Below, in pieces: positions 11,609-61,429 of a stretch of DNA of 62,042 nucleotides. The translations under genes were made by a program, and so were the position numbers. Source of the stretch: an uncultured Lachnospiraceae bacterium (GTDB taxonomy: Bacteria; Bacillota; Clostridia; Lachnospirales; Lachnospiraceae); the NCBI GenBank assembly GCA_904395885.1, contig CAJFOF010000021.1:1-62042 (forward strand). The letters run 5' to 3'. Every line of letters starts with the position of its first letter. The stretch's first letter is position 1. The notes under the pieces are model-generated. The model worked only from the letters and a program-made list of their open reading frames with translations, searched no databases and had not been told where the DNA came from.

Positions 11609-12253
11609 TTAATCCTTCATCGTTTTCTCGGCTGAAGTTTGCTGAAGAATCCCAAACAGGGTCATATCCAGCAATTCTTCCGCCGCTTCCAACATGGAGT
11701 GGATATCGTAATAAGGTTCCTCTGATCCGCAATGAGCTGCTATTGACCAGAAATGTTCCCCCATACCTTCCAGGTAGTGGGTCACTTTTTCCGGATCCAG
11801 GCCCGGACGCAGAGTCATACGGGATACAATCCGGCTCAGAAATTTACGGTTTGTTTCCCGAATCGGTTTTCTCATGGCCCTGATCTGATCTGCCAGATCT
11901 TTCGGCGGGCGGATCAGAGCATTTTCAAAAATCAGTTTTTGCTCCGGATGAAGCTGAAAATAGTACTCACGAATCATAAAAAAATTCTTAATGGTATCAA
12001 TTGTGCTCTGATCTGCCAGATCTGCCGCCTGCTGATCCACGTAAATTTTCAACTCCTGAAATGTCTTCTGAACACACAGCAAGAACAGTTCATCTTTATT
12101 GGAATAATAATGGTACATCATTCCTTTGGAAATCCCATGTCTGCTGCAGATACTCTCAACCGTTACCTTCTCGTAACCATAATTCCCGAATTCCTCCATC
12201 GCGGCCTGCAGAATTTCCCGCTTACTACGCTCCTGCCGTTCTTTCTGTGTCAT
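11609..12253 (-). CDS. TetR-family transcriptional repressor
   Basis: 214 residues with an N-terminal TetR HTH (IEFGNYGY-type region then TVESICSRHGISKGMMYHYY at residues 30-50) and a helical ligand domain. Its start overlaps the end of the antiporter gene by 29 bases, so it is the second gene of that operon. Two matching palindromes in the operon promoter (13534-13593) are the likely operators, giving autoregulation and control of the antiporter. The inducer is unknown. Confidence 0.92.
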   Translation of the reverse strand: MTQKERQERSKREILQAAMEEFGNYGYEKVTVESICSRHGISKGMMYHYYSNKDELFLLCVQKTFQELKIYVDQQAADLADQSTIDTIKNFFMIREYYFQLHPEQKLIFENALIRPPKDLADQIRAMRKPIRETNRKFLSRIVSRMTLRPGLDPEKVTHYLEGMGEHFWSIAAHCGSEEPYYDIHSMLEAAEELLDMTLFGILQQTSAEKTMKD

Positions 12254-57741: not shown

Positions 57742-58656
57742 ATGAATCTTCTACGAGCTGCACAAACTGCAAACGCCGATTCCTCCCGTGGACTTTTGCA
57801 GGTTAATGTGGTATCGATCCAGAATAATTTTCCTATATCAGGCGCCTCCGTCACCATCGCCTCAAAAGCAAATCCAGAACAGATCATAGAACGGATCTCC
57901 ACCAATTCCTCCGGCCAGACCCAGCAGGTCTCTCTCCCGGCCCCGCCTCTGGAATACAGCTTTGATCCAGGCGGCCCTGTCCCTTACTCTGAATATGTGG
58001 TCTCTGTCGAAGCCGAGGGGTTCCAGCCCTTTACGGTCACTGGCACAGAAATTCTTCCGGACTCCACCGCCATCCAGCCGATCCGCCTGACCCCGGAAAA
58101 TCAGCCGGAGGCATCCGACACTGCAAACATTCCGGATCATACGCTGGTCGGAGATTATCCCCCGAAAATCGCTGAAGCGGAGATCAAGCCAGTCAATGAG
58201 AGCGGAGAGATCGTGCTGAGCCGCGTCGTTGTCCCCCAAACCATCGTTGTCCACGACGGGCTTCCCAGCAATTCCAATGCTCCCAACTATTTTGTTCCTT
58301 ATCGGGATTACATTAAAAATGTGGCCTGCAGCGAAATCTATTCCACCTGGCCCCAATCCACTATTGTTGCCAACGTCCTGGCTATTATGTCGTTCACCTT
58401 AAACCGCGTCTATACAGAATGGTACCGAAACCAGGGATACGATTTTACCATTACATCCTCCACCGCCTTTGACCACAAGTGGATCCATGACCGGAATATT
58501 TTCGAGAGTATTTCCGTTATTGTAGATGAAATCTTTGACAGCTATCTCTCCCGCCCTGGCGTCAAACAGCCCATTCTCACCCAATACTGCGATGGGAAGC
58601 GGGTGCAGTGCCCGGATTGGATGGCCTTATGGCAGATAGTTATAACGTTTGCTTGA
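57742..58656 (+). CDS. sleC: SleC-type spore cortex-lytic enzyme, N-terminal part (interrupted gene)
   Basis: 304 codons, of which the first 293 are native. The N-terminal pre/pro region (RGLLQVNVVSIQNN) leads to the SleC core (YFVPYRDYIKNVACSEIYS, MSFTLNRVYTEWYRNQGYDF, FDSYLSRPGVKQP, LTQYCDGKRVQCPDW). Clostridial SleC (about 440 residues) should continue with a (L/M)(S/T)QWG segment and a peptidoglycan-binding domain. Instead ten unrelated residues end in a stop. The missing part is in frame at 61043-61429. ATG 57742 after AAGGAG. SleC degrades spore cortex during germination. No clear sporulation promoter was identified upstream. Confidence 0.88.
   Translation: MNLLRAAQTANADSSRGLLQVNVVSIQNNFPISGASVTIASKANPEQIIERISTNSSGQTQQVSLPAPPLEYSFDPGGPVPYSEYVVSVEAEGFQPFTVTGTEILPDSTAIQPIRLTPENQPEASDTANIPDHTLVGDYPPKIAEAEIKPVNESGEIVLSRVVVPQTIVVHDGLPSNSNAPNYFVPYRDYIKNVACSEIYSTWPQSTIVANVLAIMSFTLNRVYTEWYRNQGYDFTITSSTAFDHKWIHDRNIFESISVIVDEIFDSYLSRPGVKQPILTQYCDGKRVQCPDWMALWQIVITFA
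58611..58632 (+). repeat. Left attachment junction (attL) of the sleC element
   Basis: Positions 58613-58632 match 61035-61054 at 14 of 20 bases in one register (offset 2,422), with shared TTGG at 58617-58620 and ATGG at 58629-58632. The core cannot be fixed further: TTGG, TG and CC all give the same excised length and an open frame. Confidence 0.7.
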
Positions 58657-58689
58657 TCATACTTCTCGCCTGTCAAATGCCGATTACAC

Positions 58690-58763
58690 AAAAAATGCCT
58701 GAAAGCGTCAGTCCTCTTCTGACTCTCCCAGGCCCCATTGCCTCTGCATCAAATTTGCACACT
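58690..58763 (-). ncRNA. Putative small RNA in the sleC element
   Basis: A minus-strand promoter (58770-58798) is followed 70 bases later by a terminator hairpin GCCTGGGAGAGTCAG...CTGACGCTTTCAGGC (58697-58733) with ATTTTTT. No real ORF fits. A transcript of about 74 nt is predicted. It might act in the element's control, or against its plus strand. Confidence 0.5.
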
Positions 58764-58769
58764 GATATT

Positions 58770-58798
58770 ATTATGCACACTTTTCCCTTATCTGACAA
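58770..58798 (-). promoter_or_regulatory. Promoter of the putative small RNA
   Basis: TTGTCA (58793-58798), a 17-base spacer and CATAAT (58770-58775) on the minus strand. Confidence 0.6.
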
Positions 58799-58942
58799 GA
58801 GATTTTCTTAGTTTTTTCAAAATTCCTTAATTTCCTTTAGAAAAAGTTTAGCCCAAGTCCATATTTTCGTCACACATGGCTGGTAATATATGTATCAACA
58901 CCAAGGCAGAAGCCTTTTCACATAGACTTTTTCATACTCATA

Positions 58943-58975
58943 GCCGGCAGGAAACTGCCGGCACCTCCTTTTTTA
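58943..58975 (+). terminator. Intrinsic terminator inside the element
   Basis: GCCGGCAG-GAAA-CTGCCGGC, a perfect 8-bp stem with a GAAA loop, then CTCCTTTTTT. It would stop a transcript that reads from the interrupted sleC part before the tRNA gene. Confidence 0.82.
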
Positions 58976-59028
58976 TGGCGTCTTTCATTCCATTCTTTTT
59001 TCAATCGCAAAAAAATTTAAAATTCCCC

Positions 59029-59057
59029 TTGCTTTTTCAAAAAAACTATGGTAATAT
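59029..59057 (+). promoter_or_regulatory. Candidate promoter of tRNA-Glu
   Basis: TTGCTT (59029-59034), a 17-base spacer and TAATAT (59052-59057), 16 bases before the tRNA. Confidence 0.5.
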
Positions 59058-59073
59058 AACCAAGCTTGCTTAT

Positions 59074-59145
59074 GGCCTCATGGTCAAGCGGTCAAGACGA
59101 CGCCCTCTCACGGCGTAAACCCGGGTTCGATTCCCGGTGAGGTCA
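59074..59145 (+). tRNA. tRNA-Glu (anticodon CTC), inside the sleC element
   Basis: A 72-base cloverleaf. GGCCTCA pairs with TGAGGTC, the anticodon arm is ACGCC-CTCTCAC-GGCGT (anticodon CTC, reads GAG) and the T arm is CCGGG-TTCGATT-CCCGG. CCA is not encoded. It lies in the intervening element and would be lost from sleC's chromosome when the element is excised. GAG can also be read by a UUC tRNA, so loss in a dying mother cell would be tolerable. Confidence 0.93.
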
Positions 59146-59150
59146 TTTTT

Positions 59151-59181
59151 AAAGAATCCTGAAAAACAGGATTCTTTTTTT
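59151..59181. terminator. Terminator of tRNA-Glu
   Basis: AAGAATCCTG-AAAAA-CAGGATTCTT, a perfect 10-bp stem, with T-runs. It overlaps the stop codon of the minus-strand small gene, so it may work both ways. Confidence 0.85.
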
Positions 59182-59431
59182 ATTGCGAAAGCTCTGTCAA
59201 ATGCCGCTGGCCATCTGTCTCTTTTTTCATGCAATCGAGAGCTTCCAGAAGCTGAATCTCCAGCCAGCTTTCCACTTCCTTCCTCTCCATCTCCCTCATT
59301 CCTTCCACCTCAATCTCCTTACCTTCCGTTCCAATCAAAATCCGAAATGACCATTCCCCCACATTCAACATCCCCTTTTCGGCTTCTCTAAAACATATTC
59401 TCTGCCCTAAGAAAAAAACCTTTTCTTTCAT
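59180..59431 (-). CDS. Small charged protein in the sleC element (candidate directionality factor)
   Basis: 83 residues from ATG 59431 (MKEKVFFLGQRICF...), rich in Glu/Lys, ending KKETDGQRHLTELSQ. A GAAGGA lies upstream; in-frame ATGs farther upstream run into the recombinase start region. It is divergent from the recombinase gene, 58 bases apart, and ends at a shared terminator. No family recognised. Serine recombinases need a small accessory protein for excision, often encoded nearby, which makes this a candidate; that role is inferred. Confidence 0.5.
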   Translation of the reverse strand: MKEKVFFLGQRICFREAEKGMLNVGEWSFRILIGTEGKEIEVEGMREMERKEVESWLEIQLLEALDCMKKETDGQRHLTELSQ

Positions 59432-59456
59432 TCTTTTTTTCTTTCCTTCATAAACT
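59428..59456 (+). promoter_or_regulatory. Sigma-E-like promoter candidate of the recombinase gene
   Basis: TCATTCT (59428-59434; 5 of 7 to the sigma-E -35 KMATATT), 14 bases, then CATAAACT (59449-59456; 7 of 8 to CATACAMT). The ATG follows 33 bases after. The match suggests mother-cell expression, as for spoIVCA of B. subtilis, but such short motifs can occur by chance. Confidence 0.45.
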
Positions 59457-59489
59457 CTGGTAATGTCACCCATTGGGAGGATTCTCAAA

Positions 59490-61028
59490 ATGTCCATCTG
59501 TGAAAGTAGGATGCCGGCCATCAGGACTGCCGCTCTCTACATTCGCGTTTCCACCCACGAACAGGAAGAGCTGTCCCCTGACTCTCAGAAACGGCTTCTT
59601 TTAGATTACGCAAATGCCCATCAAATCTCTGTGCCGGAGCAGTGGATCTTTCAGGAAAATGGTGTGTCCGGCCGCAAAGCAGACAAACGTCCCCAATTTC
59701 AGCAGATGATCGCCCAGGCCAAATCCGCCTCTCACCCCTTTGACGCCATTCTGGTGTGGAAATTTTCCCGTTTCGCCAGAAACCAGGAAGAAAGCATCGT
59801 CTATAAATCCATGCTGAAAAATAAATACCAGGTCTATGTCATCAGCATTTCAGAGCCGATTATCGACGGTCCTTTCGGCAGTCTGATCGAGCGCATCATC
59901 GAGTGGATGGATGAATTCTATTCCATCCGCCTGTCAGGGGATGTGGTCAGAGGAATGACAGAAAAAGCTCTGAGAGGCGGCTGCCAGTGCCGCCCGCCTC
60001 TGGGTTACTGTCTCCCTTTCCCCAAATCTCCTCTTCAGCCTGTGCCGGAAGAGGCCCAGATCATTGGTCAGATTTTCCACTGGTACTGCAGCGACCATTT
60101 AAGTCTGGCCTCTATCGCCCGGCGGCTCAATGATTCCGGGGCCAGAACCCGCCAGGGAAACCTTTTTGACAAACGTTCCCTCTCCTACATCCTTCAAAAC
60201 CCTGTCTACACGGGAAAAATCCGCTGGAACCGAACCGACAGCTCCTCCAGAACCGTTCGCGATCCCTCCCAGTGGATCATATCCCAGGGAACTCACCCGC
60301 CTATAATATCAGAAGAAATCTTCCAGCAAGCCGCTCGCAGACTGGCTTCTGATAAGATCCCTGTCCCTGGATCCGGCGTTTCTCAAACGTTCAGGTCTCC
60401 CGGTCTGCCGAAGCACTGGCTCAGCGGCCTTCTGAAATGTCCGGCCTGCGGTCAAAGTCTCTCCGCCTGCACCCGGCACCGGAAAACGCTCCCTGACACC
60501 CTCTACTTTCAATGTACCAATTACATTAAAGGACAATGTTCCTGCAACTGTTATCTTCCGGAGGCCGCCATAACCGCCGCTGTCCTCAACACCCTCCAAG
60601 TCATGTTCCCTTCCGATAGCCGTCCCACTGCAGACTGCCAGGAAACTCTGCGGCAGGCAGATCATTCTGTCAGACCGCCTCTCCCAGAACACAGAGGTCA
60701 GCTTCTCCGGCGCCGCCAACAAATTTGTCAGCAGATATACCGGGCCAGAAGTGCGTATCTGGCCGGAACCGACACCCTGGAGGAATACACGCAAACCAAG
60801 TCATCCCTCCGGACAGCTCTTACCCAGGCCGAAGCCGCCCTGAAGGCCCTTGACTCTCTCCCCGAAAAATCCTTACACAGAACGCCTTCAGACGCCCTTT
60901 GCGCTTTCCTCGCCTCCACTTCCTATACCAATGTTCAAAAATCTGCTGTCTTAAAGCGCATCGTTCGCAAAATTGTCTGTCACAAAGCAAGAAGATGTAT
61001 CGATATTTATCTTCATTTTTCTTTGTAA
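59490..61028 (+). CDS. Large serine recombinase (SpoIVCA-like)
   Basis: 512 residues. Resolvase domain 15-160: AALYIRVSTHEQEEL with the nucleophile Ser, GVSGRKADKRPQFQQMI, and ILVWKFSRFARN with catalytic Arg. Recombinase domain about 180-290 (ARRLNDSGARTRQGN ... YILQNPVYTGKIRW). Zinc ribbon 320-365 (LLKCPACGQSLSAC ... FQCTNYIKGQCSCNC). Coiled-coil tail 400-460. SpoIVCA of B. subtilis is of similar size. ATG 59490, nine bases after GGGAGG. The stop is 11 bases from the right att core, and the gene lies in the split sleC. Confidence 0.93.
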   Translation: MSICESRMPAIRTAALYIRVSTHEQEELSPDSQKRLLLDYANAHQISVPEQWIFQENGVSGRKADKRPQFQQMIAQAKSASHPFDAILVWKFSRFARNQEESIVYKSMLKNKYQVYVISISEPIIDGPFGSLIERIIEWMDEFYSIRLSGDVVRGMTEKALRGGCQCRPPLGYCLPFPKSPLQPVPEEAQIIGQIFHWYCSDHLSLASIARRLNDSGARTRQGNLFDKRSLSYILQNPVYTGKIRWNRTDSSSRTVRDPSQWIISQGTHPPIISEEIFQQAARRLASDKIPVPGSGVSQTFRSPGLPKHWLSGLLKCPACGQSLSACTRHRKTLPDTLYFQCTNYIKGQCSCNCYLPEAAITAAVLNTLQVMFPSDSRPTADCQETLRQADHSVRPPLPEHRGQLLRRRQQICQQIYRARSAYLAGTDTLEEYTQTKSSLRTALTQAEAALKALDSLPEKSLHRTPSDALCAFLASTSYTNVQKSAVLKRIVRKIVCHKARRCIDIYLHFSL

Positions 61029-61032
61029 CCCC

Positions 61033-61054
61033 TGCCGTTTGGCTGACCCAATGG
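61033..61054 (+). repeat. Right attachment junction (attR) of the sleC element
   Basis: Matches attL at 14 of 20 positions in register, with TTGG at 61039-61042 and ATGG at 61051-61054. To its right the sleC frame resumes. Confidence 0.7.
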
Positions 61055-61429
61055 GGTTCGATGGCTCTGGGCGAAGAAGGATACAGTCCTATAGAGATTC
61101 TCCGCCACTTCTACGGCGACAGTATCTATATAAACAACGCAGATGAAATCGCCGGAATTCCGGCATCCTGGCCAGGCTATAACCTGACAATCGGCTCCAC
61201 TGGCGACAAAGTCAGGCAGGTTCAGGAGCAGTTGGACTCCATCGCCACAATTTACACCGCCATTCCCCGGGTAAACCCTGACGGTATCTTCGGCCCCGCA
61301 ACCCAGAGAGCAGTCAGAGAATTTCAATCTGTCTTCGGCCTTCCTCAGTCCGGCGTAATCGATTTCCCTACATGGTACAAAATCTCCCATATCTATGTGG
61401 CCGTCACCCAGATTGCAGAATTAACGTAA
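61043..61429 (+). CDS. sleC: SleC-type spore cortex-lytic enzyme, C-terminal part (interrupted gene)
   Basis: 128 codons that continue the 57742 frame after excision: (L)TQWGSMALGEEGYSPIEILR, then a peptidoglycan-binding domain (YNLTIGSTGDKVRQVQEQLD, DGIFGPATQRAVREFQSVFG) and WYKISHIYVAVTQIAEL. It lacks its own start codon and binding site and is silent unless the element is removed. In SpoIID/SleC-type enzymes the TQWG segment is conserved near the active region, so the split form is almost surely inactive. Confidence 0.88.
   Translation: MTQWGSMALGEEGYSPIEILRHFYGDSIYINNADEIAGIPASWPGYNLTIGSTGDKVRQVQEQLDSIATIYTAIPRVNPDGIFGPATQRAVREFQSVFGLPQSGVIDFPTWYKISHIYVAVTQIAELT

Follow-up and report, generated by a model that had tools for sequence, protein, structure and literature searches.

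Why does a gene for a spore cortex-lytic enzyme stop after 293 codons and continue about 2.4 kb further on, behind an open recombinase gene? The question is raised by a 62,042-nucleotide stretch of DNA from an uncultured Lachnospiraceae bacterium (contig CAJFOF010000021.1; the whole stretch is hereafter called the window), in which sleC is found in two pieces. So far, developmental excision of DNA has been demonstrated in a few genes of spore-forming bacteria. According to our sequence analysis, the best explanation (probability about 0.82) is that sleC is split by a skin-type element, which is predicted to excise by means of its own recombinase and to rebuild a SleC of 421 codons. The same explanation had been offered by a sequence-only reading of the window, and it is now supported by the motif at the join, selection on the 3' part of the gene, the recombinase motif, the symmetry of a set of elements, a candidate recombination directionality factor (RDF) and a split sigK in the same genome. 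The target gene and the minimal size are new; the class of mechanism is already known.

57742–58621, + strand: sleC 5' part (N half), 293 codons plus the first base of joined codon 294
58622–61043, no strand assigned: intervening element, 2,422 bp
61044–61429, + strand: sleC 3' part (C half), peptidoglycan-binding domain (PF01471, E 1.2e-14)

The N half starts at 57742, reaches a Trp codon at 58620 and runs on through 11 element-derived codons to a stop; the C-half frame resumes at 61043 and continues for 128 codons, ending with the stop at 61429. Placing the halves at 57742–58620 and from 61043, with a serine recombinase between them, the sequence-only reading was right, and an open frame for the recombinase was found at 59463–61028. 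Its count of 14 matching bases among 20 at the two edges (offset 2,422) was the same on recounting, a similarity that is weak by itself. Its in-frame rejoining to about 421 codons also stood, with the edges refined to 58622–61043: excision at a shared TG gives 421 codons and a stop, in frame, and codon 294 of the joined gene becomes ATG (Met) instead of the CTG found at the right edge. The sequence across the join is QYCDGKRVQCPDW-M-TQWGSMALGEEG, and the joined product contains QYCDGKRVQCPDWMTQWGSMALGEEG at this place.

Both features that define a SleC, homology to a solved SleC along the full length and a peptidoglycan-binding tail, were found. A profile of 11 intact SleC relatives matches PDB 9h68 (E 1e-156) over profile positions 13–420 of 421, in agreement with the proposed SleC-type enzyme of near-known length; this structure is named a spore cortex-lytic enzyme pre-pro-form and has QMTQWGS at the junction. 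Among the matches listed from two protein searches, 182 of 183 intact homologues carry W(M/L)(T/S)QWG at the join, so that relatives do match the rebuilt protein at W293, a point on which the sequence-only reading had staked its proposal. When 21 uninterrupted loci were read directly (the long-frame members of L051–L078, plus L152), (M/L)(T/S)QWG stood at the join position in 20, including L056 and L058, where the alignment ended three residues early; the 21st, L152, has MRQWE. Among the matches listed, the closest element-free relatives of the split gene of Lachnoclostridium sp. An14 (L017, draft assembly, element of 2,416 bp) are 420 aa long, which is the length of the rebuilt An14 SleC. The first 26 residues of the C half bear a weak resemblance to the final part of the SpoIID/LytB domain (TIGR02669, E 0.0018, under the cut-off of the model), and on this basis either half alone is not likely to be active.

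The split is not confined to the window. In all four genomes of the genus examined, the N half is present with the recombinase and the C half behind it (the window loci, L007, L008 and L009). A recombinase scan of named species genomes led to 41 loci, 15 of which have sleC halves (both halves in nine, C only in four, N only in two), and all of these halves end at residue 293 or start at 294. At L048 (Anaerostipes butyraticus JCM 17466) the N half and the recombinase were read, the C half lying past the end of the sequence retrieved. The N half itself was found in 190 of 299 sampled Lachnospiraceae genomes (about one per genus), and 14 stretches were chosen from the listed matches for a short open frame, counted stop to stop; this choice misses split genes with long upstream frames (L017 with 495 aa and L013 with 430 aa, both split), and no frequency can be derived from it. 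One stretch, L092, was discarded because it reached the end of its contig, and the other 13 interrupted N halves all end in W followed by ATG(A/G)C(C/T). A recombinase relative lies in the fetched stretch for nine of the 13, in G062 and G031 a recombinase plus a C half lie on other contigs, and no recombinase relative was found in G213 and G169. Both halves were read in seven (L079, L083, L084, L086, L088, L089 and L090). Most of the genomes compared are metagenome-assembled genomes (MAGs). A single N half was detected in the window genome (G000) and in four of five further genomes with the split that were searched; in G305, the fifth, the match was only weak and partial.

Fifteen elements with both edges measure 2,074–6,571 bp, and two more are about 14.6 and 24.3 kb long; the compact sleC elements, of 2.1–3.6 kb, are the smallest of the kind known to us. 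Element lengths occupy all three classes modulo 3, and the halves rejoin in frame in all 15 cases. The edges of the window element were assigned as follows.

58622–58623, + strand: attL core dinucleotide TG, where crossover is predicted (all 15 elements have TG at either edge; symmetry centre of the set)
58624–58650, + strand: element-side arm of attL (P' arm), predicted recombinase binding
61018–61043, + strand: element-side arm of attR (P arm), predicted
61044–61045, + strand: attR core dinucleotide TG

When the ends of the elements are joined, the junctions of the 15 loci, taken as a set, resemble attP in being inverted repeats about a single TG, with 177 symmetric pairs among 315, against a mean of 102.7 (standard deviation 7.0) for shuffled arms, and 0 of 2000 shuffles were as high. 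The mean number of symmetric pairs per element is 11.8 at the TG centre and 3.9–7.9 at all other centres tried. Symmetry about central dinucleotides is likewise described for the attP sites on which phage serine recombinases act (PMC5595907). Since the same cut recurs in independent genomes and the symmetry of the 15 elements lies far outside the shuffles, the split goes beyond chance.

Selection on the two halves points in the same direction. Between the window and L010, the ratio of nonsynonymous to synonymous substitution rates (dN/dS) is 0.027 for the N half, 0.134 for the recombinase and 0.033 for the C half, with dS near 1 and no stops. Across split-species pairs with finite dS, it ranges over 0.028–0.076 for the C half, 0.021–0.174 for the N half and 0.128–0.274 for the recombinase. 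These ratios indicate purifying selection on the orphan C half, and an unexpressed C half would not look so. In seven of the 15 elements (L011, L019, L013, L015, L016, L017 and L022) there is no ATG, GTG or TTG in frame upstream of the C half; together with the mixed lengths modulo 3, this makes removal of the element the simple route to expression.

What, then, could remove it? The element contains three predicted genes.

59073–59146, + strand: tRNA-Glu (CTC) gene (ARAGORN)
59180–59371, − strand: small acidic divergent open reading frame (ORF), candidate directionality factor (predicted), 63 aa, isoelectric point 4.6
59463–61028, + strand: large serine recombinase, 521 aa (Resolvase, Recombinase and Zn-ribbon domains; PHROG 95; YIRVST)

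The recombinase frame, which is open in all four genomes of the genus, has the domains of a large serine recombinase, matches the PHROG 95 integrase (E 4e-101) and retains the catalytic motif, so that the catalytically dead enzyme that would have spoken against the sequence-only reading was not encountered. That reading had named the recombinase among the contents and had left the tRNA gene and the small ORF unmentioned. Three features of skin-type elements, namely an interrupted sporulation gene whose halves rejoin in frame, a site-specific recombinase of its own with a catalytic motif, and att sites with a common core at both edges, are present, the last by the symmetry of the set. No prophage structural or lysis genes were seen in the window element, where the frames outside the recombinase reach at most 113 aa and Pfam was applied to the recombinase and to the 113-aa frame; the latter had no match. 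Amidase genes lie at the edge of some larger relatives (L085, L087 and L090).

For the small ORF, a profile from nine recombinase-adjacent ORFs was run on 645 frames upstream of 48 recombinases. Nineteen divergent frames, from 19 of the 48 loci, ranked top, ahead of any frame on the other strand (E 2.3); nine are the training frames and ten are others (E 5e-7 to 0.18), of which three lie in sleC elements and seven in elements of a second target, cotJC, described below. Acidic RDFs serve both C. difficile skin and SP-beta (PMC5025042), and the 63-aa acidic ORF is a candidate for this role. Transfer RNA genes are found within eight of the 15 sized elements (Glu in the window, L010, L011 and L019; Val in L015–L017; Ala in L083), which fits an element that is not normally lost. 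The idea that the element carries the sole tRNA-Glu was rejected for the window genome, as another tRNA-Glu (CTC) is on contig C46. In An14, one tRNA-Val (GAC) appears among four similarity hits, and it lies inside the sleC element (L017, 5515–5587).

We propose that the large serine recombinase would recombine both edges at the shared TG, most likely with the assistance of the small acidic protein; the element would thereby be released as a circle, and the two halves would form a single SleC reading frame of 421 codons. In C. difficile, sleC belongs to the mother-cell genes that depend on sigma-K, and the operon of the manganese catalase gene cotD likewise requires sigK (PMC3789822); from this dependence we infer that excision, itself a prediction, may be restricted to the mother cell. 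If so, the spore chromosome and the germ line would keep the element, because the mother cell is not inherited. The likely origin would be prophages and smaller elements with sleC as their attB, worn down to a recombinase and att sites and kept because sleC needs them.

A scan of viral contigs is relevant to this origin: 11 contigs carry the N half, cut at the same place in seven (L145–L151) and with the join uncut in four (L152–L155). Three of the former (L145, L146 and L150) are predicted IMG/VR proviruses of 37–38 kb, beginning or ending in the cut N half, and the C half was not seen on the seven contigs with a cut. The sleC join site thus looks like a site that doubles as a phage attachment site.

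Several observations weigh against excision of a skin-type element from sleC. No joined sleC of the window genus (best 76%) or of An14 (best 88%) was found among the matches listed from 5.8 billion proteins, each search giving the best 120 of about 7,993 scored proteins. The symmetry of single elements is modest (11/25 in the window, 9/25 in L010, 5/25 in An14), and the junction case therefore depends on the set of 15; moreover, the TG identity is forced by the Met/Leu codon and is weak proof by itself. For most split-species pairs dS is near or past saturation. The recombinase frame of L019 has 415 aa and no ATG was found for it. The small ORF is found in only 19 of the 48 loci, nine of them being the training set and the ten others weak; it is absent from the profile matches in L015–L017 and L019 and belongs to no Pfam or PHROG family. 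Upstream of the recombinase, phylogenetic footprinting revealed no ATA of a sigma-E −35 element, and a sigma-E/sigma-K promoter was dropped as evidence, the CATAAA-like box in the window, L010 and L011 lacking that −35. Finally, on the SleC tree the split state is scattered (13 changes, at least six forced); a single origin was rejected on these grounds, and such scatter implies both gain and loss of the element, which some lineages may do no more than tolerate.

That scatter, like the lack of a joined form among the matches listed, would suit a sleC merely broken by a decaying prophage remnant in an organism that germinates without SleC or does not sporulate, and the small elements do resemble prophage remnants, with the predicted 37–38-kb proviruses at the same site. 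Nevertheless, the low C-half dN/dS of the pairs with finite dS speaks strongly against decay, and a recombinase open in all four genomes of the genus (415 aa without ATG in L019) and in-frame rejoining in 15 of 15 elements are not what a broken gene would lead one to expect; we regard this explanation as very unlikely. Selection on both halves would equally be expected if they acted as two separate polypeptides that assemble, and the window has an in-frame ATG 16 codons upstream of the C half. However, the seven C-half frames without a start codon and the N halves that end in 3–66 element codons speak against such a split protein, which also leaves the recombinase and the symmetric junctions unexplained, and we give it hardly any credence.

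A third alternative is random excision of an active mobile element or phage in a small number of vegetative cells, with a rebuilt sleC as a by-product and no developmental control. Related elements do reach 24 kb and include predicted proviruses, and in C. botulinum V73 an intact yabG and circular yin were reported at all time points (PMC10747680). The window element, on the other hand, has outside its recombinase only frames of at most 113 aa, the longest without a Pfam match; tRNA genes lie inside eight of the 15 sized elements; and no joined protein appears among the matches listed. Random excision is unlikely on this balance, and developmental excision of a skin-type element remains the reading that we prefer.

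How does the sleC element compare with those already described? Like skin, which splits sigK in C. difficile and B. subtilis, it is a serine-recombinase element in a mother-cell spore gene, but its target is sleC and its size 2.4 kb; excision of C. difficile skin needs the recombinase and the acidic RDF CD1234, under sigma-E (PMC5025042). The element gin, in gerE of B. cereus ATCC10987, is similar in being non-phage and in having a serine recombinase (GirC), a 6.5-kDa partner (GirX) and att sites that are inverted repeats arranged around a central dinucleotide (PMC5595907), whereas it is 28.6 kb long, has three serine recombinase genes and occupies another gene in Bacillus. SP-beta in spsM, vfbin in spoVFB and vrin in spoVR are prophage-derived and, as here, interrupt mother-cell spore genes (PMC4191935), but they carry phage-related genes and have other targets. 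Another spore-gene element is yin in yabG of C. botulinum V73, which has a recombinase and an RDF candidate and whose excision and circle were demonstrated by polymerase chain reaction; it resides in another gene and, according to its description, occurs in a single strain (PMC10747680), whereas several genera share the sleC split. Searches of the open-licence PMC literature and the papers cited here yielded elements in sigK, spsM, spoVFB, spoVR, gerE and yabG and none for sleC or cotJC, in line with the sequence-only reading, which knew of no description for sleC.

The recombinase family extends beyond sleC. A manganese catalase gene, which we take to be cotJC, adjoins 21 of the 41 recombinase loci (L024–L030, L032–L036, L038, L039, L041–L046 and L049; ManCat model, E 8e-23), with both halves seen in four, and is cut near the boundary between ISQYGG and PDGELGA. 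The remaining five loci (L031, L037, L040, L047 and L050) have no assigned target. At L031, a cotJC-side recombinase has as its neighbour a gene with weak similarity (22%) to the SleC N half, which may be a further target. In an order-level scan, the recombinase was found in 70 of 392 genomes, and 40 further loci (the best 48 rows less the window, G027, which had already been read, and six others) gave a sleC half beside the recombinase in 11, a cotJC half in 20 and neither in nine. A recombinase tree, from which sequences below 380 aa were excluded (including L157, 336 aa), sorts by target, requiring two changes for 26 sleC and 21 cotJC rows against a shuffled mean of 15.6; the branch dividing the two sides is weakly supported (86/74 and 93/65). 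As an exception, the cotJC recombinase of L029 falls among the sleC recombinases, and its MAG also contains L020 (sleC); this is a likely retargeting. Both splits occur together in at least five genomes (G031, G062, G318, G581 and the L020/L029 MAG), with one recombinase per gene in the four G genomes.

Other observations on this family are as follows. In L026 and L036 (also L164 and L232), cotJC is apparently cut again, into three pieces, near the boundary between LLTDIGTEE and LGHLEM, with a further recombinase in the vicinity in L026, L036 and L164. At L223, one of the nine loci with neither target, the recombinase adjoins a polysaccharide deacetylase cut near RPLYG, whose best NCBIfam match, below the cut-off, is the sporulation protein PdaB. 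In L211, L212, L220, L222, L228 and L231 the recombinases adjoin unnamed proteins, several of them cysteine-containing, which may be further targets; the flanks of L220, L222, L228 and L231 gave no Pfam or NCBIfam match. Three contigs (G465:C26, G435:C42 and G398:C1) each have two family recombinases about 12–17 kb apart in opposite orientation.

The window genome also has sigK in two pieces, at 1357–1722 and 11875–12156 on the − strand of contig C64 (L144). The break falls between CVENAIL and EILMLLR; about 10 kb lie between the pieces, including a serine recombinase other than that of the sleC element (499 aa) and genes that appear host-like by eye (ABC transporter, two-component), and this interruption is probably a classical skin. 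The sleC-element and sigK recombinases are distantly alike (25% over residues 62–329). A whole sigma-factor gene on contig C34 (251 bits, below the cut-off) is probably sigE, and SpoIVA is present.

Taken together, we lean towards the view that one recombinase clade is specialized in splitting mother-cell spore genes, forming widespread DNA "introns" of Clostridia, such that building a spore would require a programme of DNA splicing in the mother cell, which is doomed to die. Its targets would include sleC, cotJC (broken twice in some cases) and a PdaB-like deacetylase, with a divergent small partner beside many of the recombinases and often two elements per genome, here beside a split sigK, and captured host tRNA genes would help to lock the sleC element into the germ line. 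If such excision takes place, a germination enzyme and a coat enzyme would be rebuilt in the same manner across numerous genera of the Lachnospiraceae and Oscillospiraceae, and annotation would mistake sleC for a broken gene in bacteria able to germinate. An element of about 2 kb would represent a minimal natural system, consisting of a recombinase, its partner and two sites, for linking excision to cell fate, and the related proviruses at the same site would show a route from phage to developmental switch.

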